Below are positions 15,593 through 49,700 of a stretch of 64,000 nt of DNA, one piece after another. Origin of the DNA: a virus; IMG/VR virus record IMGVR_UViG_3300028829_002760, positions 45,935 to 109,934 of that record; one strand, 5' to 3'. The notes beneath the pieces were generated by a model. That model was not told where the DNA came from, did not search any database, and was given only the letters and a program-made list of their open reading frames with translations. Position 1 is the first letter of the stretch; each line of letters starts with the position of its first letter. Made by a program: the position numbers and the translations under genes.

Positions 15593-15594
15593 TT

Positions 15595-17687: not shown

Positions 17688-17691
17688 TAAA

Positions 17692-28700: not shown

Positions 28701-31700
28701 TGGTTCTCCAGCTTGATCTTTATAAGTAAAAACTAAGTCTCCAATTATTTTATAAGCACCTGCTACATCAAACTGATTTCTACCAGTTTCTTGTATTCTT
28801 TCTTGTATTTCTCTAAGCTCAGTGAGAAGATCATTTTTCATTTCCCAATACTCAGGATCAATATCCATTCTTAGGTTTTGTCTTTCCCACATTTTCATTT
28901 CACGTTTATACTCTTTATCACCTGGAAGTATGTCTTTAGTAGCTAATAGATCTACAAATTCATTGTATGCACTTTGTAGCATTCCTTCCATAGGTCTCCG
29001 CTCATAAAATTCTTTTGTAGCTTCTCTGTGTTCTTGAAGTACATTTGCAATACTTAAATCATATATACCTTTAGCTTCATCATCTACTTTAGGTGTGCCA
29101 TCTTCATATGTTAATGCAAATAATTGTTGGTACTCTCTAAATGCTGCTTTTATAGTTGAGTATTCTTGAAACCTTTCTAACTCATTTTCCATTGAGTTTA
29201 CAAGGTTGTTATATGCAGCTAGTTTTTGTTTTCTTACATAGTATGCTAATTTACCTGCTTTAGATTGTTTAAATATATCATCTTTTTCATAAAACTCTGG
29301 AACAAAATCTTGCCACATATAATCTTTTTTAAATGTGTCAAATTCAAATTGTGCATCAGCAATTTTATTTACATCTTCACTCTTTTTAGCTTCTTCTAAA
29401 TTATATTCTAATAGATCGTAATGATATCTATAATCTTTAAAAGCCCCGTGATAAGACCATATTTTTTTTTCAATAGGTTTACCTTCTTTATCTACCCAAA
29501 ATACTGTATCTAAAAACCCTAACTTTTCCCTCATAGCAGGAGAATTTAATTTGGAAAATCCTACAGCAGGTAGTAGTTTTTCAAGTTTTTTTCTAAATTT
29601 TAGAGACTTTTCCCAAACAATATTTTCTACCTGTGACTTTTCATTCTCTATAAACATAGATAATGGGCCCACAACTACATCATTAGAAGAACTATAACTT
29701 TCTAACCATCTATTAAACCAAGTTATATCATGTGCTCCTCCAGTAAGTGCTTCAGTTATTTTATCTTTATCTATAACAATATCTTTGTATTCTTGTAAAA
29801 AACCTTTTAGTATATCTTTAGGAACTCCTTTTTCAATTAATGCGTCTATATCAGAATCTTCAATTGTATTTGTAGTTACTTTATAATAAAGATCATTTAC
29901 AGCATTTTCTAATTCAACAGGGTTTAATGCTCTTTTTAAAGCTGTACCAAGATTTTCTCTAAGTCTTTTTTCAACATACTCAGACATGTATCCTGTAATC
30001 TCTACATAAAACTGTACGTTGTTAGTTTTTAATAAGTTTGCAATATTAGTATTTACCCTAGTTATATTTTGTACAATTTCATTTAGATTGTTATAAAATG
30101 GATTTGATGAATCTATTATCTTTCCATCTATACTCAATGCTTCATTTATCTCTTCAACCATCTTTAACCAGGCTTTAGAGTTCTGCTTGTACAACATTAA
30201 TAAAGCTATAGTACTTCTATTATTAATGTTAGACTTATTTATCTTATTAATGTTGGACAGCATATTTTTTAACATGCTGTTTGTAGTGTCTAAAGTATTT
30301 ACTAATGCAGTTGCTCGTTGAAGATCTGCATCTAAAGATTCTTTTACGGCATCCAGTGCATTTTGAATTTTTTCATTTTCATCAAACTCCTCTACATCCG
30401 TGTTAAGGTAATCTTTTAATGTGCTAGTTACTTCTCTTAAGTATCTAGTAGTTCCTTTTTGAAATAATGTTTCTTTTAACATTGTTCTAGAAACCTTATC
30501 TCCTTTAAAATTTTCAGCCTCAGTTAAAACTCGTTTAGTGGTCTCATAAATCTGATCTATCATTTTTTGCATAGATTCTTTATCAGAGAACTTATCTAAT
30601 TCTTTAGCTCTAGCAAGTACATCTCTACCGAACATCACAAGATCTTCCTCTTTTAAGTTATTGGGAATATCTATATCTATTTCTTTTTCAAGGAGCATTT
30701 CAGATAAATCCTCTATTGAAGTATCCACATCTAGTTTAGAAATTTTTACTTTACTACCAAAAACTTTTCTAAGTATTTGCTTGATTGCGTTCAGTAATCT
30801 ATTAATAAAACTATCAAATCCCTCTGTGTTGATTTGATCGTTCATCTTATTGATTGCTTTTAATTGTAGTGCGTATGCTAATACTTCCTCCTTAAATAGA
30901 TCAGTATTTTGATCTAGTTCAGGGTATTGAGATTCTACATAAAATTTTATACCTTGACCCTCCTCAGTTGAGATAGCTTCTTTATAAAGTTTTTGGAATA
31001 AGATATTGTTCTTCATTCTTAATCCTTGAAGCAGCGGGTGTGAAAACTCATGTAATACTGTTCTAGGAGTTATGTTTTCTCCTACTAGATATACAGTACC
31101 TGCGTAATAGAAACCAGGTTCACCGTTATATTTGACCTGTCTGTTTTGTAATATCTTTGAGGCTTCTTCCTTAGTTATATTTTCGTATCTTACATCTAAA
31201 CCTACCGATAACCTTTGTGCAAGCATTTCAGCTAGTTGTTTTGATCTTTGATTTTGCAATTGTTCTACATTTAGTGATACAAAATCTACCCCATAAATAG
31301 CAGTATCTGTAACTTCTTTTGTAGTTTCTTTAGATTTAACTTTTTGATTAGCCGATATATCACCTTTTTTAATTTTAGCTAAAGTTTCATTAGCTTCTTT
31401 TAAAGCTTCTTCTTTAGATAGTCCAAGGTCATTTTGAAAACTCATTGTAGCCTGAATAACATCTTCTAATTGTTCTAATGCATTAGAATAATTATTTATA
31501 TTAAATAACCTTCTTATAAAGTCTAATAGTTCTTCAAATAAATTAGAAAACTCTTTTTTATTCATTGGAGGAACTTGTCTTAATAGCTCCTGAAACTCTG
31601 GATTTGTTAATGCTTCTGCAAATAATTCATCTGTATTTGTAAACCCATAAGGCATTGAAAACTGATATGCACCCATTAAAGATTTATCTTGCAATATTAT

Positions 31701-33389
31701 TACTTGATCTTTTAAGTACTTTAAAAACTTATCATAAGGATTTCTATCTGCTCCCTGCAATTTTTCCCTTCTTGTTTTATTAGGTAGTGCATCAAATTCT
31801 TTTTTCTTAAGTGTATCAACTCTATAGGATTCTGCTGCAATTGCAATTGTACTTAGTGAATGAACAATTTCATGCATTACTAATCTTTCTGGATCTACTC
31901 TAAATCTTTCACTATTATGATGTAGGTTTATATATTGTCCTGTAATATAACTAGCTTCAACATCAGCTATAAATGTATATTTATCATTTAATCTTTTAAC
32001 TTTAGCATTATAATATGCTGCAGTACCTTTCTTTTCTTCTGAAAATAAATGTAATACGTTTATAGGAATATTATTTTTTTCAGCAAATGGAATTAATTTT
32101 TTAGCTAAATCTTTATATTCACTATCAGGGTTATTAGCTATGTTTTGTAATATAGTTACAGTATCTGAAGTAGCAGGAATATGTAGGGATGAGTCATAAT
32201 CTGGAAATATTTTTTTAATCTTTTCTTTAGCCTCAATAGGAAGTACATCTTTTTTGCTAAACTCTATTTCTTGATTCATCCATGTTGAAGCCTGAAACAA
32301 CTTCCTCATTAAAATAGCCTTCTCTATATTAGGATTTTGTTGTAACTCTCTATTTTTAAATTCTAAAATTCTTGTTACCTGATTGTCAATTCTATCATTG
32401 ACTAATTGTTTCCAGTTAGGTATAATTTTTATAAAATTAGATAAGGTTTCAAGTTTTTTAGTTTTAGATTTTATAGCATTGCTATAAGTAAAAACTTTAT
32501 TTTTTGTAAATTTAATATTAGATTTTATTTTTTTTACAGCATTTCTACCTAAAAAAGCAATTGCTTGAGCATCACTTTTGAATTTATTTTCTTCATATAA
32601 AGATTTAAAATATTTTTTAATTGTAGCTTGATTCTTTTTTGAATAACTAGATATCTTACTTTTGTCTTTATATTTAATAAAACCATTTATAACATTTAAT
32701 TCTAATTCAAGTTCTTCAACTGCTTTTTTAGTATTATCTATTGCTTCTTTTAGATAATAATCATTTGATTTTATATCTTTTAATGCTTCTTTTATAGCAT
32801 TTGGAATTTCAGTAGATTTATTAAAAGCTTCTAGTCTTTCAGTAAGAGAAGACTTTCTATCTAATTGTTGAAGTTTTGTTTGTCTTAAAACTTCTCGACC
32901 AAATATATTTTCAAGTAAATTTTCTACTATAGTAGACATAACATAAGCGTCATCGTTATACCAAATATCTCTTTTAATACCTTTTCTATTTCTCATGTAA
33001 TAAGGTCTTTCTTTTAAAGAAAGCTTATTCATTATCATATTTGATACATCTTCTACTTCATCAAAAGACATTATAGATCTAACATCTTCTTCAGACATAA
33101 ACTTAATTCCAGGTGCAATTTTTTGAGATACATTTATAGAATTAAACTGAACTGAATTAAAATTATCCTGAAAAATTTCAAAAAGAGCTTCATTGGGAAC
33201 TGCTTCTGATAATCTTAAATTAAATAGTTTTTCACCAAGTGGTCTTAAACCATACTTTATCTCTGCTAAAGATGTCATCTTATCATTTAGATCATCAAAT
33301 AGCTTTTCATCGACTACTTTATTAACTTCATCAATAGCTCCTTGCTTTTGTAGATAGTTTACTGAATTTATTTGTACTTCACAGGCCAT
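25728..33389 (-). CDS. Giant virion protein with two zincins, LysM and membrane segment
   Basis: A 2553-residue protein. Two zincin-like motifs: HEIVH at 506-510 with a probable third ligand Glu588 (DELFAEAL), and HEFSH at 780-784 with Glu835 (EVLAYAL); each is followed by a basic amphipathic helix. A long helical middle follows. Near the C-terminus is a LysM-like peptidoglycan-binding segment at 2227-2270 (GETLEEIAKKYYIPVEELK), then a hydrophobic segment at about 2380-2397 (MAVIGLSLLALMLFGF). Start MAC, 1 base after the upstream stop. In crAss-like phages such giants are packaged cargo that leaves with the DNA. Likely roles are wall contact, proteolysis and transcription support. Confidence 0.75.
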   Translation of the reverse strand: MACEVQINSVNYLQKQGAIDEVNKVVDEKLFDDLNDKMTSLAEIKYGLRPLGEKLFNLRLSEAVPNEALFEIFQDNFNSVQFNSINVSQKIAPGIKFMSEEDVRSIMSFDEVEDVSNMIMNKLSLKERPYYMRNRKGIKRDIWYNDDAYVMSTIVENLLENIFGREVLRQTKLQQLDRKSSLTERLEAFNKSTEIPNAIKEALKDIKSNDYYLKEAIDNTKKAVEELELELNVINGFIKYKDKSKISSYSKKNQATIKKYFKSLYEENKFKSDAQAIAFLGRNAVKKIKSNIKFTKNKVFTYSNAIKSKTKKLETLSNFIKIIPNWKQLVNDRIDNQVTRILEFKNRELQQNPNIEKAILMRKLFQASTWMNQEIEFSKKDVLPIEAKEKIKKIFPDYDSSLHIPATSDTVTILQNIANNPDSEYKDLAKKLIPFAEKNNIPINVLHLFSEEKKGTAAYYNAKVKRLNDKYTFIADVEASYITGQYINLHHNSERFRVDPERLVMHEIVHSLSTIAIAAESYRVDTLKKKEFDALPNKTRREKLQGADRNPYDKFLKYLKDQVIILQDKSLMGAYQFSMPYGFTNTDELFAEALTNPEFQELLRQVPPMNKKEFSNLFEELLDFIRRLFNINNYSNALEQLEDVIQATMSFQNDLGLSKEEALKEANETLAKIKKGDISANQKVKSKETTKEVTDTAIYGVDFVSLNVEQLQNQRSKQLAEMLAQRLSVGLDVRYENITKEEASKILQNRQVKYNGEPGFYYAGTVYLVGENITPRTVLHEFSHPLLQGLRMKNNILFQKLYKEAISTEEGQGIKFYVESQYPELDQNTDLFKEEVLAYALQLKAINKMNDQINTEGFDSFINRLLNAIKQILRKVFGSKVKISKLDVDTSIEDLSEMLLEKEIDIDIPNNLKEEDLVMFGRDVLARAKELDKFSDKESMQKMIDQIYETTKRVLTEAENFKGDKVSRTMLKETLFQKGTTRYLREVTSTLKDYLNTDVEEFDENEKIQNALDAVKESLDADLQRATALVNTLDTTNSMLKNMLSNINKINKSNINNRSTIALLMLYKQNSKAWLKMVEEINEALSIDGKIIDSSNPFYNNLNEIVQNITRVNTNIANLLKTNNVQFYVEITGYMSEYVEKRLRENLGTALKRALNPVELENAVNDLYYKVTTNTIEDSDIDALIEKGVPKDILKGFLQEYKDIVIDKDKITEALTGGAHDITWFNRWLESYSSSNDVVVGPLSMFIENEKSQVENIVWEKSLKFRKKLEKLLPAVGFSKLNSPAMREKLGFLDTVFWVDKEGKPIEKKIWSYHGAFKDYRYHYDLLEYNLEEAKKSEDVNKIADAQFEFDTFKKDYMWQDFVPEFYEKDDIFKQSKAGKLAYYVRKQKLAAYNNLVNSMENELERFQEYSTIKAAFREYQQLFALTYEDGTPKVDDEAKGIYDLSIANVLQEHREATKEFYERRPMEGMLQSAYNEFVDLLATKDILPGDKEYKREMKMWERQNLRMDIDPEYWEMKNDLLTELREIQERIQETGRNQFDVAGAYKIIGDLVFTYKDQAGEPNSSDMGNDRLERVRDLEQEISDYRANIDSRTGLTRDDADEFNRLSQKATDGALESGSPEAERYFYLLDKVEETGISGQDVTRMNQIIAELGSMTEKLPTIYYMEALNYNLSRLDIEEVSEDEVEDVVNGDEFQELLEEDQKLREWFEINHYTIQKYNRETKAYESYFKRTSANNVSSPTDEKYIKFTEIIDKNTGEPILLKGAPGIRHSRNEVKDEYRTIPFGAKKADYVGKYIDNKNQWLPRLYQPGQKYSAKDGRFINEKYFQMKSANNAEYKLIDAITEYHLANQEGVSNYSKLYLDMPRYALKRGDIWQAMQKGTYGKRFGELGRNVKEWVRQSFVKTKVDAELDFNYDAKNNLVNTNLDGNQITYVPVSGIYNIDQEITDADTFSGLFRYALSVQTQSKLLESLPLVNSILDTLEDPANAPKELEKFDKGIFNLKGQLQKAKKKFSTNNRLGQVKSLIEREYFGRLVEGIEETHPVFGKMMGTLQGLSAMGSLAVNIPSDLKNKYGAYVQVLIEGLGAEFITLKDFALARPWAEKSMLEWTTKGIYQTGPGAISTQLIQFFDPVFKSKDQFGKEIERSLIKDLANGEWMYMHRKFGEMQVSVSLFGAFMFGQKIDQLLTDGTKKTMRYIDAWEKDAEGIIRLKSGIHPGWSNLPVFHEYQRGETLEEIAKKYYIPVEELKAKNRIKTAVQLEDGQEIIIAKSEKFLGLKNRIQGTSRKLFGTYDAIGQAEGNKLLLYKMFFFMRKWFTPMFMNRFGFDSKTATWTRGGERYDWATTSYGKGFYVTAFQALVKTIKSAGRNAAYLSTEEKVSLRKMAGEGMAVIGLSLLALMLFGFDPEDDDKWDKIKKRSGAYGQDTFNTYGFLSNHMLLLILGAQAESSAFVPLPSIKGLNLGMDDYTKMITQTTSAWYNTIVLYADIMGDVLDFVTFSEMDRYKRDVGTMSWKEKGDLKIWAKFRKVFGRTGSSEDPEYTIKNMIKSQTRLGQ

Positions 33390-33390: not shown

Positions 33391-36300
33391 TTATGAACAT
33401 TTAAATGGATCTTCTTCTAGCTCCAATTGTAATAATATTTCTTCATCGGTGATACCTTGTACGATACCAACCATTTTATTTATTTCTTCAAACTTAGTTG
33501 AACCAGGGTTTACGAACTGAAAGTCTTCAAACAACCTCTTACTTAAATATACGAATAATTCTTGAGGCATTGTATTTCTATCTCCTAAACCATACTCAGG
33601 AAATGCTATTTTACCATTTTTTTCTTGAATCTTTTTTACAGTGGCAATTCTATTTTCCCAAATCTTTTTTAGATTATCATATTCACTAGGAGGTAATTCT
33701 ACTTTACGTCCATCTTTAATATGACTGTATAGATCAGTTGGGAAGTTTATAGACATGTCTCCTACCTCTGTCATAAAGTATGATGATCCACCTAACACAA
33801 TTCCATTATCTTTTTGTTCTGGTCTAATCTCAAAAACACTTGTATTATGTAAAAATACTACGTCTGGATTATTTTTAGATATATTAGAGTAATAGAAGGT
33901 ATTAGTTGCATTATTATCATTGTAAGTATAAACATCAGTTTCTTCTGTATTTCTCAAACCTAATCTTCTTTTAACAACTTCAGTATCCATATTAGTAGTG
34001 TCTATAACAGTTTTAGCACCTCTATCTAGTAAAGCATTTTGTGCAAGTTTCAATCCTTCTAGAAAAGCTTTATCAATAACATAATTTGTGTTATGAGTAA
34101 ATTTTTCATATTGTAATAATTTTGTAGCAGCTTCAGAATTACGATTTTGTAAAAATGATTCTACTACAAGATCTTTCATAAGTTGTAAATTATCAAAACT
34201 TTTTTTAACCTTTTTACCTCTTATTTTAGTACCGTATCCACCAGCATCAATATATTTATCATATGTTGATTGATCAAACTCACCTGATTTATTAGATTGA
34301 TATGCATGCTCTACACTTCCATATTCTCTACCTTCCCAAGTAAATGTTCTTGGTGCAAGATTAGATAATATTTTTGTAGAAGTTTTAGATTCAGCTTGAC
34401 CCCAATATACATTAATAGTTCCTGTTGGTTTAACACCAGTTTCTAATTCAGTTGTTTCAGTTGTTTCAGTTGATTTAACAGTATCAAGTTCCATATCTGA
34501 TATATAATCCTTAAATCTGTTTTTATTTTGATTTGTTCTAGCATTAATATCAAGGAACATATCATAGAAATTACTTAATATACCCTGACCATTTTTTTCT
34601 AATGCTGAAATAAAGTCTTTAGATTCATTTTCAAGTATTGATAAAAAGTTATTATAGTCTACTACATTTGTAAAGTTTAACTTTGTTTTATTTAAACCTG
34701 TTTGTAAAAAAGAATATAAGTTTAAGTAATCAAACATCTTACTTATTCTTAAATTTTCAATTGGATCCTCAACTTTAGAATATCCAGGGTTAGCTAATTT
34801 TTTTAGATCATCAGTATATAAGTTAGACTTATCACTATCAAAATCTTTATCTGCTAAATATATATTGTAAACACCATCTTCCTTACCACCATCTAATTTG
34901 AATTTCTTAACTACGTTATATGTTCTACCTAGTTCAGGATTATCTTGTAACATAATCATAAATCTAATAGCAAATGCATTTTCACTCTCAAATAAATGGA
35001 ACATATTAAATGAATTATCTAATGCTTCAATAGCTAATAGTTTTTCATAAGCATATCTTACAGCTTTTTCTTGAGTTAATTCAGGCATTATTTCTTTAGT
35101 AAGATTTAACTCATCTTTAAAAGTTTTAGTTTTAGCATAATCTTTAGTAAGAGGGTTTAGATACCTTAAATATTCACGTTGAGCTACAAATTTTAAGTAT
35201 TCATCGAAATTTGTTTGAGAATTAGTTCTAAAAGTTGAAGGGTGTAATGGATATAATCCACGATCTTCATATGAATTTTTCACATCAGAATCTTCTTCCC
35301 ACGCACTTTTCTTAAATTCTTTTTCAAGTTGTTTCATGTCCATATACAGAACACCATCTTTTATAAAAGCACCTCTATTAAGCTTTTTAACTAATTTAGT
35401 AGGTATTTTAGTTTGAAGATCTAAAGACATAAAACCGTCTTTACTATTATATTTTCTTATAGCATTTTGTAGTATAAAGCTTACTATATCATTTCTAAAT
35501 ACATTACTAAACATTTCCACATTTTGACCTGGGAATGTATTTTCTAGATCCATTCTAATACTATCTTTTTTAGATATTAAGAACCTACTGATCTCAGGAT
35601 GATATCTTAATTCAAATAGTGGTCTACTTACTGCTAATGCTAGTGGTCCATTAAAGAATGATCTTAATATTGAGTCATTCCTCATAGCATTTACAACTTC
35701 CAAAGGCACTCTTGAATCATAGAATAATTCATCTAAATTAGCTTCAGTTTGCTCTACATCAGATAAAGTAGTCTTAGTACTTGTATCTGGATTAGATGCC
35801 ATTTTAAGTTTAGTATATCCACCAATCTGTTGTTCAAGTTCTAAATAATGTAAAAACATTGATTTAACTAAATCACTCTCTGTATCATTTTCCTTAATAG
35901 CTTTAAGCATTTGAGATTCAGTAAAATGATTTTTTCTTTTTTTACTAAAGAATTTATCAAGTAATTGTTGACCTTTATTATATCTAGCATCATTTTTACT
36001 TCTAGGTGACAACTCATCAAAATCAAAATATTTACGTATTACTTCAGATGCAGCTTTATATTTTGCTAATCCAGATGCACCAACATCTTTTCCTAATGCT
36101 TCAGCAAATGTAGATTTAAATAAACGTTGCTCAGTTACATAATCTCTAACTAGTGGATTAGATACAAAGTATATTGCTTCTTTAACAGGTACACCAGCTT
36201 TAATCATATATAACAATGTTGGAGCTACTTCATAGTTACCTTGTATAAAGAATACCCATGCATCTTTCTCAACATCAACCCAACCGTTCATCATTTGAGA

Positions 36301-39300
36301 TATAACATCAGCAACTTTATTTACACCATCAACATCATACATATCTGATATAGATATTACTTCATCACCATTTTTACTGGTCATTTTATTATGTCTCAGT
36401 CTCATGTTACTTTCCCTTAATACTTCTTTAATTTTATAAGTATTAGGCATGTATGCTCCAATGGCATTCATAATAACATTAAATGTATTTTCTATAGCAC
36501 CAAGACCAAGTGTCTTTTTACCTACAATATTTGACTCATGTTTATATACATTATATAATGCTTCTAAAACTCTGGTAGGACTCATCTCACCAGTATCTTT
36601 AGTCATTTTATTTTTCTTAGGATTGTATTTAGAAACATATTGAGCAAGTTGATCAGCAATACCCTTTAATATAAAAGTACCGTTAGGCATAATAAGTGAT
36701 GCGTAGTTATCTGGTAATTCTAAAATTTCTTTAATATCATTTATAAGTTCATTTTCTAATGCTGCTTTTTGATTTTTCACAGCTCCTAGAAAATTATCTG
36801 TACCTCTTAAATCTTTTATAGATTGTAAATCACTATAAGATCTTTTTATAACTGAACCATCTTCATCTAAAGTGTTCATAAAAATTGTCAACTTATCAAT
36901 ATCAAAGTCACCCCCTGATTTAGCAACTATTTCTGCTGGAGGTACTATAATATTTCCTGCTTGTGGAGGTAAGAATTCAAATACTTCAGCAAATTCCATA
37001 GAGTTAAGACCCTGAACTGGTATTCTAACACCTACTAATGTTATTGCTTTTCTGTTAGCTCCATTATTAGCATCTAACCAAGAATCATCTTTAATTTTTT
37101 CATTTAATCTTTCTAAAGATTTGTCCATATTAAGTTCATTATCTTCATTATAAACACCTATACTTTCATCATTCTCATATTCTAAATTAAATAGATTATA
37201 ATAAGTACCTTGCATAGCTATCATAACTTTAGCTGCTGCAGTATATCCATCTGATTTTTTATGATAAGTTGGTAACAAGTAAGATGCTGAAGCCCACTTA
37301 GCTATTTCATCTTTAGTTGCTTTTCTTAAATCAGGTTTAGCAAACTGATTTTGGAACATTCCAACTGAAACTTGTACTAATGGTTCCCCATTTACTTTTT
37401 GTTTAATTACTCTCTTATTAATCATAGAGAGAATTAACTTTTCTATTTTACCAGACTCTGGATGGAAAGATAAATCATGTTGTATTTTACCTGAGTTATC
37501 AAATACATCTATAAATTCAATTAAATCATCACTAAGAACATCTTCTCTTTCAAGATTTGTTCTAATTATATTTAAAAGCTTAGCTGTACTTGATTTATCT
37601 TTTGCTTTATATTGACCTGGGCTTGTTTCTTCATAACCCATTTCTTCTAAAAGCTCAAGCTTTAATAGTTCTGTATATTCTTCTACATGATCTATATAAC
37701 GTTTAACTCTTTCATTTGTAATCTCTTCATACTTAGTAGATTTAATTACACCTCTTTCATAAAGTCCTTCTAGAATTAATTTACGTAACTGTGTAGAGAA
37801 TATAGTTTTAAATTTATACTCTGAATTAACTTCTGTCTGATTCTTTAAAAATTCTGCATATATTGTATTTACTGTAAACTCAGAGTCTTTATTAAAACTA
37901 CCATCTTCATTAAGTACTACATCACCTGTTCCTATATGAGATACTTTAGAACCTGATTCCATTAATACATAATCCATTTGATCTTTCATCATTTTTTGAT
38001 GTAAATCATATAATGGTGTACCAGCTTTTGCTACTCCAGGTATTAATGGTGCAAGTGAAAACTTATGAAATGAATTAACAGGTAGTCCTGTAGCCTCTAT
38101 ATTTCCAAAGTATTGCAGCTTATATGATGGGAAAAATTCTACTATATCTTCAGCTGTAATATTTTCTCCCATAGCAACTCTTCTATATAATTGCTCTTGT
38201 TCTGTACTCCAATTACTTTCAAGTTCTTTTAATTGTCTATATGTTTCAAATGAAATCCATCCTTGACCATCAGCAATATCCATTTTACCATACTCTTCTA
38301 TAGCTTTATCTGCTATATTTTTAGCAACAGTTTTACTACCAGTTCTTTCATATACAGAATCATAAATAGACTTTCTATATTCGTCAAACATTTCAGACTT
38401 TATAGTAATTTCCTTTAAGATTGCTGTTCTAAAAGTTCCGTCATAATTTCTTGACTCATAACCTAATCTATCTGCATAATATTTCTTTAAAGAACTTACA
38501 TATATTTGCGCTCTTTGATCAGCTCTAAATCCTTTTCCACCTGATGCAAGACCTGCATTTCTTTTATGAAATTCTTCTTTAGCATGATTATACTGTACTA
38601 GATCACCATATGCTAAAGCTACAGTTTCCATTTTATGAATAAAAGAGTTATATGTATATGCTGACATTAATGAAGTTTCTATATCCTTTTGAGTTAAACC
38701 TGGGTTAATAAGTTCAAATCTTTGATATAATCCTTCGTCTATATATTTAGCTTCTTGTAATCTTTCATAATTTTCTTTAGTGTCCTTACTAAAATATTCA
38801 TAAACATTACTTCTAATTTTTTCTCTTAAATCAAATTGGTCATCTAATTCATCCATTAGATTAAAATTATTATTAACATCTTTAGAAGCTTTATCTAATA
38901 TTTTATATAACTCATCTTGAACGTCTTCCTTTAAAACATCATCAAATGCTGTAAATGCTTGACCTGCCATTACAGTGGTTTTATTCTCATCTTTTCTTTT
39001 AACTTTTCTATTATACCCAGCATAGTTTTTAAACTTATCTTTCTGTTGCTGAAATCTTACTATTCTATTAGCTTCTGCAGCAATATATCCTTCAATAATA
39101 TCATATGCTTTTATTTCACCATCAGAATATCCTACAAAAGATTCTATGTCTACATAAAGTTTATTGTCTTTTTTACCGTTATATGTTTGGATAGTACCAT
39201 CTACTGTCATTCCTAATGCAGTATTTTTGGAAGCATGTCTCATAAACTCCTCAACTCCATTCAATAACATTGTATGGATTTCTTGTAAAAATTTACTTGT

Positions 39301-42300
39301 TGCATCCATAGAAGCTGTACTATCACCAGTATAATTTCCTTTAACTTTAGTCTGTGTACCTGCTACATGTTGTAATGTAATTTTAGTATCAGATAGTTTT
39401 TCTCCATATGTACTTGACATTGGATTTAAGTCAAAGATAGAACCAAGTAATTTTGAAAATACACTAAATGTATTATTAGCTTCATTTAACCACCTCATAT
39501 GTTTAAACTTACCGTTTAAATCTGCTTCATCAGTAGTTAACTCTTGCCAGTTCTTAGCAGTATTAATTGCATTAACAATTCTTGTTACTGAGCTATCTAC
39601 CATATGTTCCCAAACTCTTGTTCCTTCAGGAGTTTGAACACTAAAATTAGAATAGGAATCAGAAAACATACTTTGTATTTCTGCTAGTGTTCTAAGTCTA
39701 CTAGATACATCTTGACTTTGAGATTCATCTTCTCTTAATGATTCTGGTAAACCAGTCATAAGCATTGATATAGGATCTTTTTTAAAGTCAAGAGCTGCGG
39801 GCTCATCACTTTTATTTACAATCTTAACAACCTCATACATTCTATCTACACCAAACCTGGTACTAAATGGGTTTTCAGTGCTTTCTATTATTTCTTCTAT
39901 GGCTATGGAAGATTCATCTAGTACAATACCAATAGCTTTAAGAAAGTCATTTGCTTTCCTGTAATTAAATACACCATTTTTTCCAAAGTCTTTTACAACT
40001 TTAGCTGTATTTAATATATTAGTTTCAATACCATTTACACGAACCGTTTCTATGTATGGATTTGAAATAGGATCAGAAGTAATAAAATTAGATTTCCAAT
40101 CTCTAGTAACTTGATATGTATCAAAATTAGCTCTACCTAACTTAGCTTTATATTCATTGTCTTCATCTTTTTCTAAGTTAAGTTGTATATAAGGTATTCT
40201 TGGCTTTTTAAAGTCCTGCCAAAAAGCAGTTTCTAATTTAAACTCTTCTCTTGATGAATATTCTGGTCCATTTAAAACTCTAAATGGGTTTGGTAATACA
40301 TCTAGTAATTGTTGAAGCTCTGGATAGTTATCCATATTATCAAATATTCTAATGTACATATCCATTTCATCATATGAACCTTCTAATATTTTTGCAAGCC
40401 TGTTCCAAGTTATATCTACATCTTGAAGTTCAGGTAATCCAAATAAACCTCTTTTTCTTACAGATTGATCATTTTCTATTTCTGTTTTAAATAAACTAGC
40501 TAACAACATCATAGTTTCTTCCTTAGCTAATTTTTTAGCTGAAACACTATTATCATCTTTTAATTTAAATAAACTACTTTCACTAATATTAGTAGGATCT
40601 TCTACTTCAGTATATTGATCTCTTAATACCTTAAATCTAGATTTTTCTAAATGATATGCTATAACATTCTCTTTTTCACCGCCTTCAAATACATCATTAG
40701 GACCTATATAATTATCTGTAATCTTATCTAATAATTCTAATTCTTCAAGAAATTTAGGATCAGAAATTACTTCTATATCCTCCTCAACTTTTTTGATATA
40801 TGACAATCGAAGTCTTTCAAATTTGTCATAGATATCTCTATAGAGTTCTTTTTTATTATCCTCATCTTTAAGTAAATCAAATGCTCCTGTTGTAGTATTA
40901 AAATCTTGGTTATACTGTTCAAATATAAGAGATGCCATGCTATCCATAGCATCAACTACTTGTTTTGACTCTTGTATAGAAAAGTTTTCATTAATAGTTT
41001 TGGCTCTATTTAATTCACCAAACATTACATTATCCATAGAGGGTGTAAGGTTTGATAATAGTTCAGGATTCTCAGATGCTCTATATAGTTTATCGTAAAG
41101 TTCTTTTACAGATTCTACATTCATTAGATCTGTAGTAACCTCATTCTTAGTTGTCTTACCAAATAATCTTTGTAAAAATTTATAAATCTTATCAAAAATT
41201 CTAGCTAGGAAACCTTTTACTTTACCTTTACCTTTTGATTTAGCATATGTTCTAAATTGTTCAGCAAGATCTTCTTCTATTTGAAAGAAGCTTTTGTTTT
41301 TGTATTTATCTAAAGATTTTATTTCTTGATATAAATTTACTTTCTCATCTTTAGTTAAAAATAATTGTGAAAAACCATGCCATGCCTCATGATAAACATC
41401 TACTGAAGTACCACCATCTCCTTCAAATAATGTAATACCATAACCAGACCATCTAGCAAATGCATTAGAGTTTGTTATTTCAGTAATTCTTTCTAGGCTA
41501 ATATATTTACTTAATGGAGAACTTGCCCACCACTTTTCTGCTGCTTTTCTATCTGCTTTAGATGTGAATATTTTATCAAGATACATGTCTTTAGCTCTGT
41601 CTAATCCTTTTTTCTTGTAACGTGTCTCACTAGACTTACTGTCTTTCAAAACATCATCAAGTAAATGATTTCTAGTAGCTGGATTATCTTTTATATCTTG
41701 TTCTTTTGCTTGAGATTCAGTTTCATCTTCACTAAGCCTTCTTTTAAAACCTATTTTCTTTTTCTTTTTAGACTTAGGAGCTACCTTATCTTTATCTGTT
41801 TTAGGTTTCCTTTTACGTTTAACTGTAAATCTTTTACCAGTATTTTTCTTTTTAGGTGTAGTCTTTTTTTCTCTTAGTACCCTTGCTCTACCTACTTCTA
41901 TATCAGTAACATCTTCTAATAGTCCTTCTGGTATAGTATAATTTAAATATGCATTTAGACCTTTTTCATAATCTAAAAGATCTTCAGTATATTCTAGTTT
42001 AATGTATTTTTTAATTGCATCAAAATGTTTTACAGTTTGTGTTTTAATTACATCACCCTCAAAAATATAATCAGTAAAAGTTTTACCTTTTAATGAATTT
42101 TTATAATGTACATTAGCAGGGAAGTATCCATTTTCTCCTTCTTTCTTTTGACCCGCTTTTAATTTTTTAGGTATTGCATTTAATAAATGATTCTTAATCA
42201 TTTGTTTACCTTCTTCAGTAAACAAAACATCATTTGAAATTGGTTTACCGTTTATATATACTTTATAATCTTTTCTTTTAAGTTTTTCTAAAACCTTAAC

Positions 42301-43764
42301 TTGGATTCTATCTCTATTTATGTTAGAATTTTCTACTCTAGCATTATTGATAAAGATTTCAAAATAATCTTTTCTTTCTTCAGGTGTTAACTCTCTACCT
42401 TTTAATTTAGCTGTAGTAGTAAGAACTTCTGCAATTTTATCTGCTAATTGCTCATCCATATCTCCTCTTTGAAGTTGGAGTTTAAATGGTTCAGTATTTT
42501 CAGTTCCAGGTATTTTTCTTTGTACAATAATATATTGACTACCTTGTCTTTTACCTACTGTTTCTGCAGTATAGTTTTTTAATTCTTCTTCAGTTACATT
42601 AGCTTCTTGTAAAGTTACAGCAACCTTTTTACGATTAGATTGTCCTAATGTTCCAGATACAATAGGTAATATAATAGTCATGTCGTCATTTTCCTCAATC
42701 GTTGTTCTTAAAGCATAAAGAGTATTTAACTCTATCTTTTGACGTTCAGCTATTACATCTTCTAATTTTTGTAATTGTTTCTCAGTTACTTTACCACCAT
42801 TATTTTCTATAAGTTCTGCTTGTTGTTGAGCTAATACTTTTGGCTCTACCATATTGTATTTTCTATAAGCAGTGTTTGATAATAAAAGTTTACCTTTTTC
42901 CTTAACAACTCTTCTAAGATATTGATATACAATTCTTCCCTCTTCTGGATTATCAGTTAAAGTGCCATCTTCTCTAAAATAAAGAAAGTTACCTTCTTTA
43001 TCAGTTATAACAGCAGTAATACCTCGACTTTTAGTCTCTTTGTTAAGATATGCTTCATCCGATGTAGTTAATAGTTTAGGATCAATATTTCTTGTTTGCA
43101 TAGCAGTTAATGCTATTTCAACATCCTCATACATAATAGGTTCAGTAATATCACTTCTGTTCCTAGCTATAAGACCTATTGCCTTTACTACGTCTGAAAA
43201 TAATTTTTTTTCTGGATCAATTCTATCTTTATCTTCTTCTGAAACAGTTTCTGGATTAGCAGCTATAGCAATTTGATATGTGGTTGTCCATGCACTTGTT
43301 ACTTTTGCACCATTAAATTGATTAAATGACCAAAATAATAATTCGTCAATTGGAGGATTTGGATCTATAGATGTATCTTTTCTTGTCTTATTAGCATCTT
43401 TTATTTCAGCATCTATTTCATCTTTAGATTTTTTTTTGGTTGCTAATGCTTTACCAACTTCAGTAAGATCTTTAAAATTTTTCCTTTGTTTATTAAGGGC
43501 TGTAAAATCAAAATCTTTATCAACCAGATAATCATTTACTTCTTCATCAAGATTTACTAAGTTAAAGATGTCTGGAATAGCTTGAGCATAGTACAAAGCT
43601 TTTACCTCATCCTCTGAAGCTTCTTTAACTGCAGCATAGATATCTTTTATAGTTTGATCTAAATCAAACTTAGGCAGTCTGTTATCATTAATTCTATCTA
43701 TTATTTCTCCATATAGAATTTTATATACATCTCCTACTTGCTTTTCATTTAAACTACAGGCCAT
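33391..43764 (-). CDS. Giant virion RNA polymerase-like protein with zincin and NADAR-like domain
   Basis: A 3457-residue protein. A lysine-rich linker lies at about 625-680. A zincin HEAWH is at 792-796 with Glu831 as third ligand, followed by a basic helix. The core motif GGDFDIDK (Asp2286, Asp2288, Asp2290) matches the catalytic metal-binding motif of multi-subunit-type RNA polymerases as found in single-chain crAss-like and YonO-type enzymes, with an upstream VRIPVQGLNS segment as in the beta-prime RxP motif. The C-terminus has a NADAR-like domain (about 3116-3255, SVEHAYQSNK with Glu3152) and a possible macro-like domain (about 3300-3425). It probably enters the host and transcribes early genes. 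Confidence 0.8.
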   Translation of the reverse strand: MACSLNEKQVGDVYKILYGEIIDRINDNRLPKFDLDQTIKDIYAAVKEASEDEVKALYYAQAIPDIFNLVNLDEEVNDYLVDKDFDFTALNKQRKNFKDLTEVGKALATKKKSKDEIDAEIKDANKTRKDTSIDPNPPIDELLFWSFNQFNGAKVTSAWTTTYQIAIAANPETVSEEDKDRIDPEKKLFSDVVKAIGLIARNRSDITEPIMYEDVEIALTAMQTRNIDPKLLTTSDEAYLNKETKSRGITAVITDKEGNFLYFREDGTLTDNPEEGRIVYQYLRRVVKEKGKLLLSNTAYRKYNMVEPKVLAQQQAELIENNGGKVTEKQLQKLEDVIAERQKIELNTLYALRTTIEENDDMTIILPIVSGTLGQSNRKKVAVTLQEANVTEEELKNYTAETVGKRQGSQYIIVQRKIPGTENTEPFKLQLQRGDMDEQLADKIAEVLTTTAKLKGRELTPEERKDYFEIFINNARVENSNINRDRIQVKVLEKLKRKDYKVYINGKPISNDVLFTEEGKQMIKNHLLNAIPKKLKAGQKKEGENGYFPANVHYKNSLKGKTFTDYIFEGDVIKTQTVKHFDAIKKYIKLEYTEDLLDYEKGLNAYLNYTIPEGLLEDVTDIEVGRARVLREKKTTPKKKNTGKRFTVKRKRKPKTDKDKVAPKSKKKKKIGFKRRLSEDETESQAKEQDIKDNPATRNHLLDDVLKDSKSSETRYKKKGLDRAKDMYLDKIFTSKADRKAAEKWWASSPLSKYISLERITEITNSNAFARWSGYGITLFEGDGGTSVDVYHEAWHGFSQLFLTKDEKVNLYQEIKSLDKYKNKSFFQIEEDLAEQFRTYAKSKGKGKVKGFLARIFDKIYKFLQRLFGKTTKNEVTTDLMNVESVKELYDKLYRASENPELLSNLTPSMDNVMFGELNRAKTINENFSIQESKQVVDAMDSMASLIFEQYNQDFNTTTGAFDLLKDEDNKKELYRDIYDKFERLRLSYIKKVEEDIEVISDPKFLEELELLDKITDNYIGPNDVFEGGEKENVIAYHLEKSRFKVLRDQYTEVEDPTNISESSLFKLKDDNSVSAKKLAKEETMMLLASLFKTEIENDQSVRKRGLFGLPELQDVDITWNRLAKILEGSYDEMDMYIRIFDNMDNYPELQQLLDVLPNPFRVLNGPEYSSREEFKLETAFWQDFKKPRIPYIQLNLEKDEDNEYKAKLGRANFDTYQVTRDWKSNFITSDPISNPYIETVRVNGIETNILNTAKVVKDFGKNGVFNYRKANDFLKAIGIVLDESSIAIEEIIESTENPFSTRFGVDRMYEVVKIVNKSDEPAALDFKKDPISMLMTGLPESLREDESQSQDVSSRLRTLAEIQSMFSDSYSNFSVQTPEGTRVWEHMVDSSVTRIVNAINTAKNWQELTTDEADLNGKFKHMRWLNEANNTFSVFSKLLGSIFDLNPMSSTYGEKLSDTKITLQHVAGTQTKVKGNYTGDSTASMDATSKFLQEIHTMLLNGVEEFMRHASKNTALGMTVDGTIQTYNGKKDNKLYVDIESFVGYSDGEIKAYDIIEGYIAAEANRIVRFQQQKDKFKNYAGYNRKVKRKDENKTTVMAGQAFTAFDDVLKEDVQDELYKILDKASKDVNNNFNLMDELDDQFDLREKIRSNVYEYFSKDTKENYERLQEAKYIDEGLYQRFELINPGLTQKDIETSLMSAYTYNSFIHKMETVALAYGDLVQYNHAKEEFHKRNAGLASGGKGFRADQRAQIYVSSLKKYYADRLGYESRNYDGTFRTAILKEITIKSEMFDEYRKSIYDSVYERTGSKTVAKNIADKAIEEYGKMDIADGQGWISFETYRQLKELESNWSTEQEQLYRRVAMGENITAEDIVEFFPSYKLQYFGNIEATGLPVNSFHKFSLAPLIPGVAKAGTPLYDLHQKMMKDQMDYVLMESGSKVSHIGTGDVVLNEDGSFNKDSEFTVNTIYAEFLKNQTEVNSEYKFKTIFSTQLRKLILEGLYERGVIKSTKYEEITNERVKRYIDHVEEYTELLKLELLEEMGYEETSPGQYKAKDKSSTAKLLNIIRTNLEREDVLSDDLIEFIDVFDNSGKIQHDLSFHPESGKIEKLILSMINKRVIKQKVNGEPLVQVSVGMFQNQFAKPDLRKATKDEIAKWASASYLLPTYHKKSDGYTAAAKVMIAMQGTYYNLFNLEYENDESIGVYNEDNELNMDKSLERLNEKIKDDSWLDANNGANRKAITLVGVRIPVQGLNSMEFAEVFEFLPPQAGNIIVPPAEIVAKSGGDFDIDKLTIFMNTLDEDGSVIKRSYSDLQSIKDLRGTDNFLGAVKNQKAALENELINDIKEILELPDNYASLIMPNGTFILKGIADQLAQYVSKYNPKKNKMTKDTGEMSPTRVLEALYNVYKHESNIVGKKTLGLGAIENTFNVIMNAIGAYMPNTYKIKEVLRESNMRLRHNKMTSKNGDEVISISDMYDVDGVNKVADVISQMMNGWVDVEKDAWVFFIQGNYEVAPTLLYMIKAGVPVKEAIYFVSNPLVRDYVTEQRLFKSTFAEALGKDVGASGLAKYKAASEVIRKYFDFDELSPRSKNDARYNKGQQLLDKFFSKKRKNHFTESQMLKAIKENDTESDLVKSMFLHYLELEQQIGGYTKLKMASNPDTSTKTTLSDVEQTEANLDELFYDSRVPLEVVNAMRNDSILRSFFNGPLALAVSRPLFELRYHPEISRFLISKKDSIRMDLENTFPGQNVEMFSNVFRNDIVSFILQNAIRKYNSKDGFMSLDLQTKIPTKLVKKLNRGAFIKDGVLYMDMKQLEKEFKKSAWEEDSDVKNSYEDRGLYPLHPSTFRTNSQTNFDEYLKFVAQREYLRYLNPLTKDYAKTKTFKDELNLTKEIMPELTQEKAVRYAYEKLLAIEALDNSFNMFHLFESENAFAIRFMIMLQDNPELGRTYNVVKKFKLDGGKEDGVYNIYLADKDFDSDKSNLYTDDLKKLANPGYSKVEDPIENLRISKMFDYLNLYSFLQTGLNKTKLNFTNVVDYNNFLSILENESKDFISALEKNGQGILSNFYDMFLDINARTNQNKNRFKDYISDMELDTVKSTETTETTELETGVKPTGTINVYWGQAESKTSTKILSNLAPRTFTWEGREYGSVEHAYQSNKSGEFDQSTYDKYIDAGGYGTKIRGKKVKKSFDNLQLMKDLVVESFLQNRNSEAATKLLQYEKFTHNTNYVIDKAFLEGLKLAQNALLDRGAKTVIDTTNMDTEVVKRRLGLRNTEETDVYTYNDNNATNTFYYSNISKNNPDVVFLHNTSVFEIRPEQKDNGIVLGGSSYFMTEVGDMSINFPTDLYSHIKDGRKVELPPSEYDNLKKIWENRIATVKKIQEKNGKIAFPEYGLGDRNTMPQELFVYLSKRLFEDFQFVNPGSTKFEEINKMVGIVQGITDEEILLQLELEEDPFKCS

Positions 43765-43765: not shown

Positions 43766-46700
43766 TTAACATTCTTTAGAATTATCTTTTAAATCATTGA
43801 ATCTAGAATTAACATCAGAGTTTCTAGAGTCCTCTTTAAGTTTATTAGTTAATTTAGTGTCATTAGCTAAATCTTTTACAATATCTTTTGACTCATTTGA
43901 TCCCTCTATATCTACTGGATCTACCTCTACTTCTGGAATAGGTTGAGTTGCTTCTTTTGTTGTTTTATCAAAATTATTCATTAGATCTTCTTCTTTAATG
44001 GTAATCTGTTCATTACTTAATATATTTCTTAAACGTACAGATTGTTTGTTGACTCTTACAATTTCAAAAATTGTATTTTCTTCGTTGTCAAAGATAGGAT
44101 TTTTAAGAATAAGATACTCACCTTTACTCACAGTATCTAAAGACATCTGTGTATTTAATTGCTCTATCCTAGCATCATATGCATCTTTAAGAACACCAGC
44201 ATTTTCTTTATTTTTTAATACCTCTAAAACAGCTGCTTGATAGACTTCTTTAATATTATCTAGGTTAGCACTATTAATCTTTTCAACTAACTTATCAATG
44301 TCTGTCTCTGTTTTTATAGGTTCAGATTCTGTTGATAAAGTTGGATCTACTTGAGTTCTTGCTCCTTTTACTATCTTTTTGAGTTCTTCTCTTGAAGATT
44401 GTCCAGGAACGTCCTCTGGTTTTCCTGATTCAGTCCTTTCATTCTTAGATACACGAGTCCTTTTCTGTACTTTTTGCTCTCCTGTGAAGATTTTTTGGAC
44501 TTTTCTGAAGTTTTTGATTTTGCCATCTTTTGTTAATTTAATTAGTTCAAGATCATTTTGTAATTCTAATAAAGCATTTATTTGATTTTGTATGTCATCA
44601 GTAAGATCACCTCTATTTAATATACTATATCCTAATTGATATAGTTGCTCTACTGTATCTTCTATCCATAATTGAATTTTAAGTAAATCTGTAGAATATA
44701 CAGGAGACTTAACATTTCCATCTAATAATCTATCTAATGCTTCTGGATAATTCTCTGCTAGTATTTCAGTAATAGATTTAGATACAGCAGCAGACAAAGA
44801 TAACTTATCTATTTCTTTTAAGTCTTGTATTTCATCTAGTTTATTAGACTTAGCAGTTAATCTTTGGAAATTATTAGGTAATCTGTTTAATGCAAAAATA
44901 TAATTGTCAGCATTAGAACCATATATATATGTTTTCTTATTACTGTCGTATAAAGATTTTCTTCTAGAACTTAAAGAATCTATTTCAGATTTTAATTCTG
45001 ATATCCTACTTAAAATTTTATTTCTTTTAAACTCATCTGTTTCGTTCTGAAAATTAGATCTAAGTCTTCCAATCTTATTACCTAATTCACCAATTTCTTT
45101 ATCTATTTTAGACATATCAGCATCATTAGACATATATGACAATGCTGTGATTTCTCCTGTTTGATTTCTTAGTACATCATATCTTACACCATTAATACTT
45201 GCTACAGTATCTTCTGCATTAGAAAATGATGCATCTACAACCTCTCCTTCAATAACAGATACTTGACCAATATTTTCTACTGGTGCCATTATTTGCAATC
45301 CTACATCAGCAAGTGTAAGTTTTTCATTAACTATATTGACATTTAGCTTTTCTATTGGGAATACTTCAAATAAACCTTCCTGAGACTCAATTGCTTTTTC
45401 AAGTTTCTCTATCGTAGAATCAAGTTCATCTAACTCTTCTTTACTTCCATATTCTTGTGCTGCAATTCTATCTAATTTAAAAGTATCTAAAGTCATTTGC
45501 ACTAACTCTAGATCTACTTTAGTAGCAACTTCAATAGCAAATGTTCCATCTGCCATTTGAATAAGTTTCCCTACACGTCCTTTGTACATTACATTTTTAC
45601 CTATATTATCTTCTAATGTAAGTTTTGAAGGATCTGTTCCCTCATATCCTGGGGTAGATTTAGTAGTTTCTTTAGTTCGGACAACAAGATTTTCAGGTTC
45701 AGTTTTTACTACACCAAACTCTTCTATTTCAGGTAAGTATTCTAGATCAACTGTATCTTGACCAGTAGGAACTATACCTGCTAATTCTATATCCTCTATA
45801 TAACCAACTCTTTTCTTTTTAGTTTTATCTAATGTAAGACTAAAAGGCATTAGTTTCAATTCTGGAGTAATTCCAGTACTATTATGGAACATATAACCAT
45901 ATATAGATTGCTGTGCCCTAAAATATATAGACTTCTCATATTTACTTTGATCTGGCTTACCAAAATTTTGCCACTTTCTTTCAGTACTTGTTTTAATATC
46001 TACAATAGCAACTGTACCATCTTCCTTAACAAGAATTAAATCAACCTCACCAGTAATACCATTATCTCTTAAAGTTCTATCAAATAGTTTTACATTCTCC
46101 GATAATATTATATAACTACCATCAACAATACCAAGTCTAAATCTAGTTACAATACCACCACCACTTTCTGTAGATACTGGAGCAAATAATTTATCAAATG
46201 CTTTTCTTGACATAACATCTGATATTTTTGTCATTTTACCTTTTATCTCTAACTCAGAGTCATAAGTAAATTCACTAAAGTTAGATTTAGTAGATGCATT
46301 AGGAGTTAGAAATATTCTTATTAAATCATCAACAACATTACCTGCATCAGAAGATTCCCTAAATGCTTCTCTTTTTAAGATTTCTTTTAACCCTTTAAAA
46401 CTACCATCTGTTTCTAATGAATTTCTAATAGCAGCAAGTTTTTCTGGATAAGCAAATGCAGGATAACCTGGACTTTCTCTAGTACCTTTACGATAAACTC
46501 TTTCTTCAAAAGCTATCATAAATGCATTTACCTTATCTTCTGGAGCTACACTATCATCATTAAAAATTTGATCATACAGTTTTTCTATTGGGGACTTTTT
46601 AAGAATTTCACCCGTCTCTTCATCTACTTCATCTTTTAACCCTTGGTAGATAAAAGCATCTGTTTGTTTTATATCATTCTCAACTTCTTCTGCTACTTTA

Positions 46701-49700
46701 GTTGTTCTTTCAGGTCGTGCTTCTGAGTCTTTAAACTTTCTCCCAATCTGATTACCATCTTCATCATAAATAGGTTCAAGCTCATCTTGCTTGTTAATAA
46801 TGTTATCTTGTATAAGATTTACAGTTTCCTCTGCAATATTTCTTGGTGCAGCAACATCTACTCTTGCTTTTAAATATCCTTTTAATGAAGCTAAATCTGA
46901 TTCAATATCTTTAATATTTGCTTTAGTAAGTTTTACTTTTTTACCTGATTTATTAGGATATGATCCATCTTTAAGAAACTTTTCAAATATTTTTATTACT
47001 TGAGCTATTTCATATGTAGTATTTTCAGCACCAATCTGTTTATTAATAAACTTTAACTTAGGAGGTTCAGCTAATCTTTTTGCTTTTTCTTCAGCTTGAA
47101 GTTTAGATTTTTCATTGATGTTTGTAATCAATTCTCCCTGACCCTCTAACCAATTTTTTCTTAATCTTTCATATTGAATCGGATCATTATCTTTAAGTTC
47201 TATATCCTCTTCTAAAGTATCTACTAAATACTCATCAAACAGTTTTGTTATCTCATCTTGATACTCTTGATCAAAATCATCAAATTCTGTTTTAGTAGTA
47301 TATACTTTAGGAGTAAATTCATCTACACCTTCTTTTTCAAACTCAGCTTTAACATCTGCTATAAGTTGATCATATTTTTCATTTATTTGATCAACAGCTT
47401 CTTGAAACTTAATATAAGGTTCAGTTTCTTCAATGTTAATTGTTTTTTTAGAAGGTTCTTTATTTAGCTCTAACTCTACTTCAGATAATTTGTTAGCTGC
47501 ATAATCTCTATATTCTAAAGCCAATAAAGTAGTAGTAACCCTTGTATCAGTATCAGTAATATTTTCAAATTTTAAACTTAACTCTTGTGCTTCTTTTATT
47601 CTTTCTGGATTATTTGCAAACTCACGTTCTTTTTGTGCAAGAAATTCAGGACCTTTTATATTGTCCTTTCTCATTATTTTATCTGCAATAACGTCAGCAG
47701 CTGCTTGTATTTCTACAGCATCAATAGATTCTCGTAATGTTTTTAATGCATCTTCTAAAATCTTTTTATCAGCTTCAAGTTCTGCTCTCCTATCTTCATT
47801 AAGAGTTTCACCTGCAATACGTTTTTTCTCTTCAGACTCATATTCATCTTGAGTTATTCCAAACTTCTCTTCAAACTCTTTGTTGTATTTATCTGTCTCT
47901 TTTTTAATTAAAAGATTTCTTTCATCATTTAATTCTTCAATTTTTTTATCTAACTTTTCTCTTAAACTAAGTTTTTCACCAGCAGGTCTTTTTTCATCTA
48001 ATATTGCAGCACGTCTTAAAACATCCATGTAATCTTCATATAGAAGACTACCTTTATTAATCATTCTATTAGTCTTTACGTCTATAAAATATTCTGGATA
48101 ATAATTATGATCCTCAACCCATTTAGCAAATTCTTCTAAGTCTAGATAAATACCTTGGTCAGCCAAAGTGTTTAAAAGAGTGTTTCTTTCTATGGCAGAA
48201 ATTTCTTGATTAACTATATCTTTAACGAGATCTTCTCTATTATCGTATAGTTTTTTCATAAACCTGAAGTTTCTAACTACATGTTCATAAAAACCATTTG
48301 GACTAGATAGTAATGTTACATAACTATTTAGTACAGAATTTTCATTTCTTAAAAGAAGACTATCAAGTAATGCGTCATACATAACATCTATACCACCTTG
48401 ACTATCAATCTCATTTTGTATGTTAAGTCTATCTTGATTAGTCTCACCTAAACCAATTAATAAATTTTTAAATGATTCCTTAAATGTATCTTTATTTTTA
48501 GTTGATCCTTTTTCAAATTCATCAAGAATTTCTTTAAAGATTTTTAAACTTACTTCTTCATCTTTACCTTTAACATCATCAAGCTGTTCAATTTCCTCTA
48601 TTTTCTTTTTTAGAAGTTCACTACTGGTAAATAGTTTATATGCTCCTTCTAAATTTTCATTATATCTAGTATATAATTCTAAAAGTTCTCTTTTATTACT
48701 TAATTCAGCAATTGCTTCTTGTGTTGTTACAGACTCTAAAGTTTCTATATCAGTTTTTAACATTTCAATTTCTCTAACTAAACCTTGAGGATCAATTAAA
48801 ACACTCATGTCATTCATAGGTGTTTGTCCCAAACTAGTTATAGAATTAAACTGTTTATAAAGTGAATTAATTCTACCTAAGTTATCATCAAAAGACTCAT
48901 GTAAAAAAGTATATGTATTCAGCGCAAGACTAAATGCTTTATTATATACTTGAGCCATTCTATATTCCTCAGTATCTTTCTCATAATTATTAAGATCAAT
49001 TCTGAGATCTTTCATTTTTTCTTTAGCTGTGTTATATCTAAATGCAGTTTTTTCTGCTTCTTTCAATGTTTTACCAAATCTTTCTAAAGCTTTTTCACCT
49101 TGTCCTGGTTGTAAATCCCATGCTTCTTCAATATCACGTGCAGAAGCTTGTTCATATTTTTTATAATGTTCCAAGAACATATTGAATGTGCCTCTTTCTA
49201 AAGATGAATATAATGCAGACTGAAATGCTGCAAACTCAGTATCTCTTATTTCTTTTGTAGTATGTTCTTCAGGATTATCAATTACTTTGGACATTAGTCC
49301 TTGTTGAGCATGATTACTAATTCTAGGATCAAAAAAGAAATTTGCATTTTTATATAGAGTATTTAATTCACTTACTATATCATCTGCCATCTGCTCTCTA
49401 TCATTCATGTAAGTTTTAAACTGAGCATCTTTTTTAAAGTAATCATTATACCCAACTGTAGCATATGATTTAATTTTACCAGGAGCTTGTAGTATTGTAC
49501 CCATTAAAAAACCTGACATAAATACTTCAAATCCTTGAGCACTCCATTGTTTAGCAATAGCATCTCCTAGTATACCTGATGCATATCTTATGTTTCTAGA
49601 ATCAGGATTTTTAAAAGCTTCTAAATAATAATGTTGTGTAGCTTCTTGTAAAACATCTTGAGCAACCTCTTGAACACCTTCCATTACATTAGCTTTAAAG

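Follow-up and report, generated by a model that had tools for sequence, protein, structure and literature searches.

A giant polymerase protein in a crAss-like phage

The 64,000-nucleotide window that we analyzed comes from an uncultivated virus record of 109,934 bases. The record is from a crAss-like phage: it has matches to the major head protein, the portal, and the large terminase, and the polymerase's matches in the annotated phage collection are mostly crAss-like. These crAss-like late genes (capsid, portal, and terminase matches) are on the same record as the polymerase gene.

The initial annotation of the window described a 3457-residue virion RNA polymerase with ADP-ribose-related domains at its C-terminus. 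This protein is real and intact, as it is encoded by a single unbroken ORF on the minus strand (Table 1), and the motifs that the annotation quoted are located at residues 3133 (LSNLAPRTF), 3153 (HAYQSNK), 3301, 3339, and 3386. The assignment as a virion RNA polymerase also stands: a profile built from 14 relatives aligns with the polymerase of phi14:2 (PDB 6vr4) across 716 positions (E = 1.8e-119), and the match spans the catalytic DFDID motif. Closer to the N-terminus, HEAWH (residues 792-796) is predicted from the motif alone to be a zincin metallopeptidase. The HExxH motif is kept in most of the window-clade relatives whose available sequence covers that part of the protein.

The neighboring genes on both sides also encode giant proteins. 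The 2457-aa protein at 43766-51139 has a weak match to PD-(D/E)XK nucleases (E = 0.0012) at residues 1672-1754, and the 2553-aa protein at 25728-33389 has a LysM at residues 2228-2267. A PADLOC scan of six proteins from the window gave nothing useful.

Table 1. Features of the polymerase gene, in window coordinates (L numbers are our labels for loci)
Feature	Residues	Position	Strand	Basis
Giant virion RNA polymerase protein of crAss-like phage, 3457 aa		33391..43764	-	ORF and profile matches
HExxH motif (YHEAWHG)	791-797	41374..41394	-	Motif only; likened to the MPTase domain of polyvalent proteins (PMC5512222)
RNA polymerase core	1864-2613	35926..38175	-	Homologous to phi14:2 gp66 (PDB 6vr4), E = 1.8e-119
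Catalytic DFDID motif	2286-2290	36895..36909	-	Motif and profile match to 6vr4
Segment missing from close relative L018/L019 (NADAR module and linkers)	about 3098-3251	34012..34473	-	Comparison with relative
NADAR domain	3111-3250	34015..34434	-	Profiles, alignment, and predicted fold
Catalytic Glu3152 (E43 of Phytophthora NADAR, E88 of E. coli C7 NADAR)	3152	34309..34311	-	Invariant in alignment; PMC11543638
Catalytic Lys3159 (K50 of Phytophthora NADAR, K95 of E. coli C7 NADAR)	3159	34288..34290	-	Invariant in alignment; PMC11543638
His3224 (FTH), which marks phage gp30.3-type NADARs and replaces Glu/Asp	3224	34093..34095	-	Invariant in alignment; PMC11543638, PMC11125620
C-terminal DUF7831-type domain	3270-3457	33394..33957	-	Profile via relatives; predicted fold

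Two independent domains at the C-terminus

Several lines of evidence identify residues 3111-3250 as a NADAR domain that, judging from its residues, is equipped for catalysis. When we used the isolated region as the query, it matched phrog_1017 (E = 9e-9), TIGR02464 (E = 2e-4), and Pfam's NADAR family (PF08719, E = 0.004). The isolated region was required: a Pfam scan of the full-length 3457-aa protein had no NADAR match at E ≤ 1. The Pfam and NCBIfam scores fall below the curated cut-offs; for TIGR02464, the riboflavin-intermediate N-glycosidase, which is the best NCBIfam model for the region, the score is 21.5 bits and the cut-off is 73.7. A profile of the 39-sequence NADAR family found E. 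coli YbiA (PDB 2b3w, E = 3e-7). The AlphaFold model of the domain has a pLDDT of 91, and when it was compared by Foldseek to about 350,000 PDB chains, the top two matches were YbiA (probability 0.99, E = 9e-3) and the ADP-ribose-bound NADAR from Phytophthora (8bau, probability 0.87, E = 0.14). Both E-values are above 0.001 and are not significant on their own, and the identity of the matches and their probabilities agree with the sequence evidence. The initial annotation's NADAR/YbiA-like region is thus borne out by above-chance profile matches, by the family profile's link to YbiA, and by a predicted fold that matches NADAR.

NADARs use a catalytic glutamate, a lysine, and a third residue, which is glutamate, aspartate, or (in phage gp30.3-type NADARs) histidine (PMC11543638, PMC11125620). 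Glu3152 does lie in an E-H-x-x-Q motif, as had been noted, and the columns for Glu3152, Lys3159, and His3224 are invariant across the 39 sequences. The glutamate is also kept in a divergent NADAR from the window's sister phage (L089, see below). The NADARs that are associated with DarT1 have aspartate at the third position (PMC11543638). That aspartate is absent from the window's NADAR and from all 39 aligned sequences, which have histidine instead.

The initial annotation took a second region (about residues 3300-3425) to be a diverged macro-type domain, which our results rule out. Pfam's Macro family (PF01661) did not match anything in the record at E ≤ 10, while the control genomes did give matches, and the 50 best PDB matches of the confidently predicted structure (pLDDT 87) include no macro fold. 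The best of those weak matches were dual-specificity phosphatases, with none at E ≤ 0.001. Therefore, there is no tandem of NADAR and macro domains. Instead, residues 3270-3457 are best described as a divergent DUF7831 domain. DUF7831 (PF25176) was matched by 15 of the 31 members of the domain alignment at E ≤ 1 (best E = 1.2e-36). The window's copy gives no DUF7831 match itself, so its membership runs through intermediates. The top five viral-structure matches of the model were all DUF7831 proteins, with probabilities of 1.00 and moderate TM-scores (0.43-0.49 of the query).

In one clade of phages, this polymerase protein regularly ends in a DUF7831-type domain. NADAR is absent from 21 of the 22 records of relatives that share the window's C-terminal domain, so the two domains are independent of each other, and the DUF7831-type domain is the older C-terminus of the protein, present in phages without NADAR. 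We rejected the idea that the two domains were inherited as one fusion, both because of these 21 records and because the two profiles are unrelated. In one relative without NADAR (L098), the polymerase protein ends with DUF7831-type domains in tandem (residues 3168-3320 and 3337-3523).

Gain, replacement, and relocation of NADAR

The window's NADAR shares 61-76% identity with NADARs of phages in which the polymerase has only 19-40% identity to the window's. The domain's position also varies. It is C-terminal of the polymerase in the window and in L002, L003, L004, L008, L013, L030, L035, and L036; it is N-terminal in L006/L007, L009-L012, L024, L029, and L038; it is inside the polymerase in L027 (about 30 residues past the DFDID motif) and L031 (upstream of DFDID); and in L005 and L039 it begins the following gene. 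On the polymerase tree, 12 changes in the presence or position of NADAR are needed, and several long branches make the deep joins unsure. The module in crAss-like polymerases was seen in uncultivated viral contigs, and a tblastn search with the window's NADAR as query hit no crAss-like entry in a collection of about 50,700 annotated phage records. We rejected an assembly artefact as the source of the arrangement, because similar arrangements are present in contigs from many different metagenomes, the G+C content of the window's NADAR module fits that of its ORF (0.290 vs. 0.288), and the reading frame is open throughout.

The evidence is clearest in the window's own clade. L018 is 69% identical to the window's protein over residues 682-3097 and 61% identical over residues 3247-3457, and the NADAR segment between them is absent. 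The sister of the window is L089 (89% identity in the polymerase core, with support of 96 on the polymerase tree), which has a NADAR at the same site that is only 30% identical to the window's and retains the glutamate, lysine, and histidine. The next relatives of this pair, L101 and L018, have no NADAR. A gain followed by a replacement, or two gains at one site, would both fit this history. The presence of two different NADAR lineages at one site in sister phages points to selection for activity. Our best reading of these comparisons is that NADAR is a mobile plug-in module that was acquired by the crAss-like virion RNA polymerase.

To look for recent exchange, we compared the synonymous sites of NADAR, with the polymerase as a control. 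Recent exchange of NADAR was apparent for L009-L012, L004-L008, and L002-L006. For pairs that include the window, the synonymous sites of NADAR are nearly as diverged as those of the polymerase, and with both close to saturation, dS gives no date for the arrival of NADAR in the window. For the window, we therefore dropped high NADAR identity by itself as proof of a recent transfer. In close pairs of NADARs from the relatives, dN/dS was 0.06-0.16, so the domain is under purifying selection in those phages.

NADAR is also found in giant virion proteins beyond the crAss-like polymerases. L045 encodes an N4-type virion RNA polymerase (PDB matches with E ≤ 1e-130), whose ORF also contains a NADAR upstream of the polymerase. 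L040 has a match to the PHROG family for virion RNA polymerase (phrog_2206). NADAR has thus made its way into two kinds of virion polymerase, crAss and N4, that are unrelated to each other. (The N4-related proteins that contain NADAR are at 6350-18175 in L045, 6437-18259 in L050, and 6938-10423 in L040.) Other NADAR-bearing giants match virion structural proteins, and some have no recognized polymerase. Some also contain SLOG (cpYpsA), DUF4326, DUF7831, or AlkB-type domains. Overall, 68 of 75 NADAR ORFs have at least 700 amino acids, which is not a census, as the search started from the window's NADAR family.

The protein of L055 (5138-14914, 3259 aa) has an AlkB-type oxygenase (residues 1344-1479), DUF7831 (1504-1608), and NADAR (about 1620-1775). 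In L012, the NADAR-bearing crAss-like polymerase protein (5288-18148) ends in an AlkB-type 2OG-Fe(II) oxygenase (residues 4086-4251), a further enzyme of nucleic-acid repair on what is presumably a virion protein. In L039 (9893-12547), an insertion of about 100 residues interrupts the NADAR that heads the ORF following the polymerase's (matches at 38-112 and 229-307). Our search for bacterial relatives found only two loci, both of the Endozoicomonas type. This Parendozoicomonas/Endozoicomonas pair (L132, 1419-11237, and L133, 3250-13665) overlaps ORFs of 3272 and 3471 codons and may be of prophage origin.

A hydrolase that travels with the polymerase?

We think that the virion polymerase probably carries an ADP-ribosyl hydrolase module that is packaged and ejected with it and that removes ADP-ribose before phage genes are expressed. 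This explanation draws together what we observed: what the domain is, which catalytic residues it has, that it is under purifying selection in relatives, that it was gained or replaced at this site, and that it recurs in unrelated virion proteins. Most likely, the NADAR would be an active N-glycosidic ADP-ribosyl hydrolase that uses E3152, K3159, and H3224. As part of the polymerase polypeptide, it would be packaged with no separate signal; it would be ejected with the polymerase, in a few copies per virion and ahead of the DNA; and it would refold in the host cytoplasm. There, ahead of all phage gene expression, it would strip ADP-ribose from its target, be this the phage's DNA, its early RNA, or a small ADP-ribose signal. 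The polymerase-associated proteins of phiCrAss001 occur in virions, at an estimated 6 or so copies each, and are believed to leave the particle before the DNA does, in a partially unfolded state (PMC10172136). Because the window's protein is homologous to these virion proteins, it is presumably packaged and ejected in the same way, which would deliver NADAR at the start of infection. We infer that the window's NADAR is enzymatically active and has an anti-defence role. That the same plug-in occurs at differing places in related polymerases suggests that the virus delivers an anti-defence enzyme along with its polymerase.

Several points count against an ejected anti-defence hydrolase. T4's NADAR, gp30.3, did not rescue cells from DarT1 (PMC11125620); about 6 copies per virion are not many for clearing a small-molecule signal; most of the close relatives do without the domain; the dS of the window pairs gives no arrival date; and the Pfam and NCBIfam scores are under the curated cut-offs.

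Guanine-linked ADP-ribose in DNA or RNA is a plausible substrate because T4's NADAR hydrolyzes both in vitro (PMC11125620, PMC11833690). In line with the initial annotation, the module might be a specific eraser of guanine ADP-ribosylation, whether DarT1-like or other, on the incoming genome or on early transcripts. We hold this tentatively: gp30.3 has the same type of histidine, the window's domain retains the full E/K/H set, and the tie to the polymerase puts the domain at the template and the transcript. But the lack of rescue by gp30.3 weighs on this proposal as well, the NADARs that are associated with DarT1 have aspartate where the window has histidine, and NADARs also occur in giant proteins without a recognized polymerase.

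Alternatively, the module might destroy soluble signals or toxins that TIR, sirtuin, or RES-type defences make from NAD (cyclic ADP-ribose variants or ADP-ribose-1''-phosphate). PMC9503650 argues that phage NADARs act mostly on small ADP-ribose derivatives and proposes such a role for them generally. It also places SLOG and DUF4326 in the same network, and some of the NADAR-bearing giants have SLOG (cpYpsA), DUF4326, or DUF7831. We consider this somewhat doubtful, as few copies of the enzyme are expected per virion, none of the cited NADARs was reported to hydrolyze cyclic ADP-ribose variants or ADP-ribose-1''-phosphate, and no TIR, sirtuin, or RES-type host system is known for the window's phage.

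A link to transcription itself seems quite unlikely. In this scenario, a NADAR that is tethered to the polymerase would clear ADP-ribosylated guanines from the template or the nascent RNA and so enable pre-early transcription, and the crAss and N4 types would have converged on transcription-coupled removal of ADP-ribose. The placement that comes closest is in L027, whose NADAR is inserted about 30 residues after the polymerase's active site. Since NADARs are also present in giant virion proteins without a recognized polymerase, delivery probably matters more than any special link to transcription.

It is very unlikely that the module has a metabolic role, either in removing damaged riboflavin or nucleotide intermediates (as a YbiA-like N-glycosidase) or in NAD-dependent RNA repair. 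TIGR02464 is the best NCBIfam model and NADARs have been linked to RNA repair (PMC9503650), but the TIGR02464 score is far below its cut-off, delivery of a few copies in the virion makes little metabolic sense, and among the proteins that we annotated, none was recognized as an RNA-repair protein. Least probable of all is a passive or structural insertion that is tolerated and spreads by recombination without enzymatic use: the many insertion places (even within the polymerase) and the domain's absence from most close relatives would fit, but the invariant catalytic residues in 39 diverse sequences, the low dN/dS in close pairs, and the two NADAR lineages at the same site all speak against it.

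If the NADAR is indeed ejected as a hydrolase, then phages can load the infecting particle in advance with an enzyme that removes ADP-ribose, simply by building it into a polymerase that they must eject anyway, and could so counter defences that act before phage gene expression. That this one enzyme has been gained, replaced, and moved repeatedly in virion polymerases points to strong and changeable pressure from NAD- or ADP-ribose-based immunity on crAss-like and N4-like phages. The near-identical proteins with one NADAR (the window), another NADAR (L089), or none (L018 and L101) are a directly testable set.

T4 gp30.3 is a small separate protein, unlike the window's NADAR, which sits inside the polypeptide of a virion RNA polymerase. 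The two share the NADAR family and the glutamate, lysine, and phage-specific histidine (PMC11125620, PMC11833690). With phi14:2 gp66 (6vr4) and phiCrAss001 gp47/gp49/gp50 (PMC10172136), the window shares a homologous polymerase core, the DFDxD motif, and a crAss-like gene set.

The nearest concept is that of polyvalent proteins, which include the N4 virion RNA polymerase with its MPTase and ART domains (Iyer et al. 2017, PMC5512222). Like them, the window's protein is a giant multi-domain virion-associated protein with a polymerase, an HExxH motif, and an enzyme related to NAD or ADP-ribose, and polyvalent proteins are predicted to be injected (PMC5512222). HEAWH, polymerase, NADAR, and DUF7831 are combined in one ORF, with the peptidase assigned by its motif only and the virion location by homology. 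Unlike polyvalent proteins, the window's protein has a hydrolase that would remove ADP-ribose rather than an ADP-ribosyltransferase, and the position of this domain shifts between relatives. PMC5512222 names no NADAR and no crAss phage.

The idea of packaging NADAR or Macro domains as an early counter to NAD-based defence is shared with the virion-packaged ADP-ribose-processing proteins of large phages, as described in PMC9503650 and PMC7824862. There, outside of RNA-virus polyproteins, these proteins are typically standalone or fused to other ADP-ribose domains, whereas the window has a polymerase fusion; the passages that we consulted contain no mention of fusion to virion RNA polymerases. 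In the open-access papers that we searched, we found no paper that joins NADAR with virion RNA polymerases or crAss phages, beyond unrelated co-mention. The virion packaging of NADARs was proposed earlier (PMC9503650), as were injected polyvalent proteins (PMC5512222); what is new here is the fusion of NADAR to virion RNA polymerases and the mobility of the domain.
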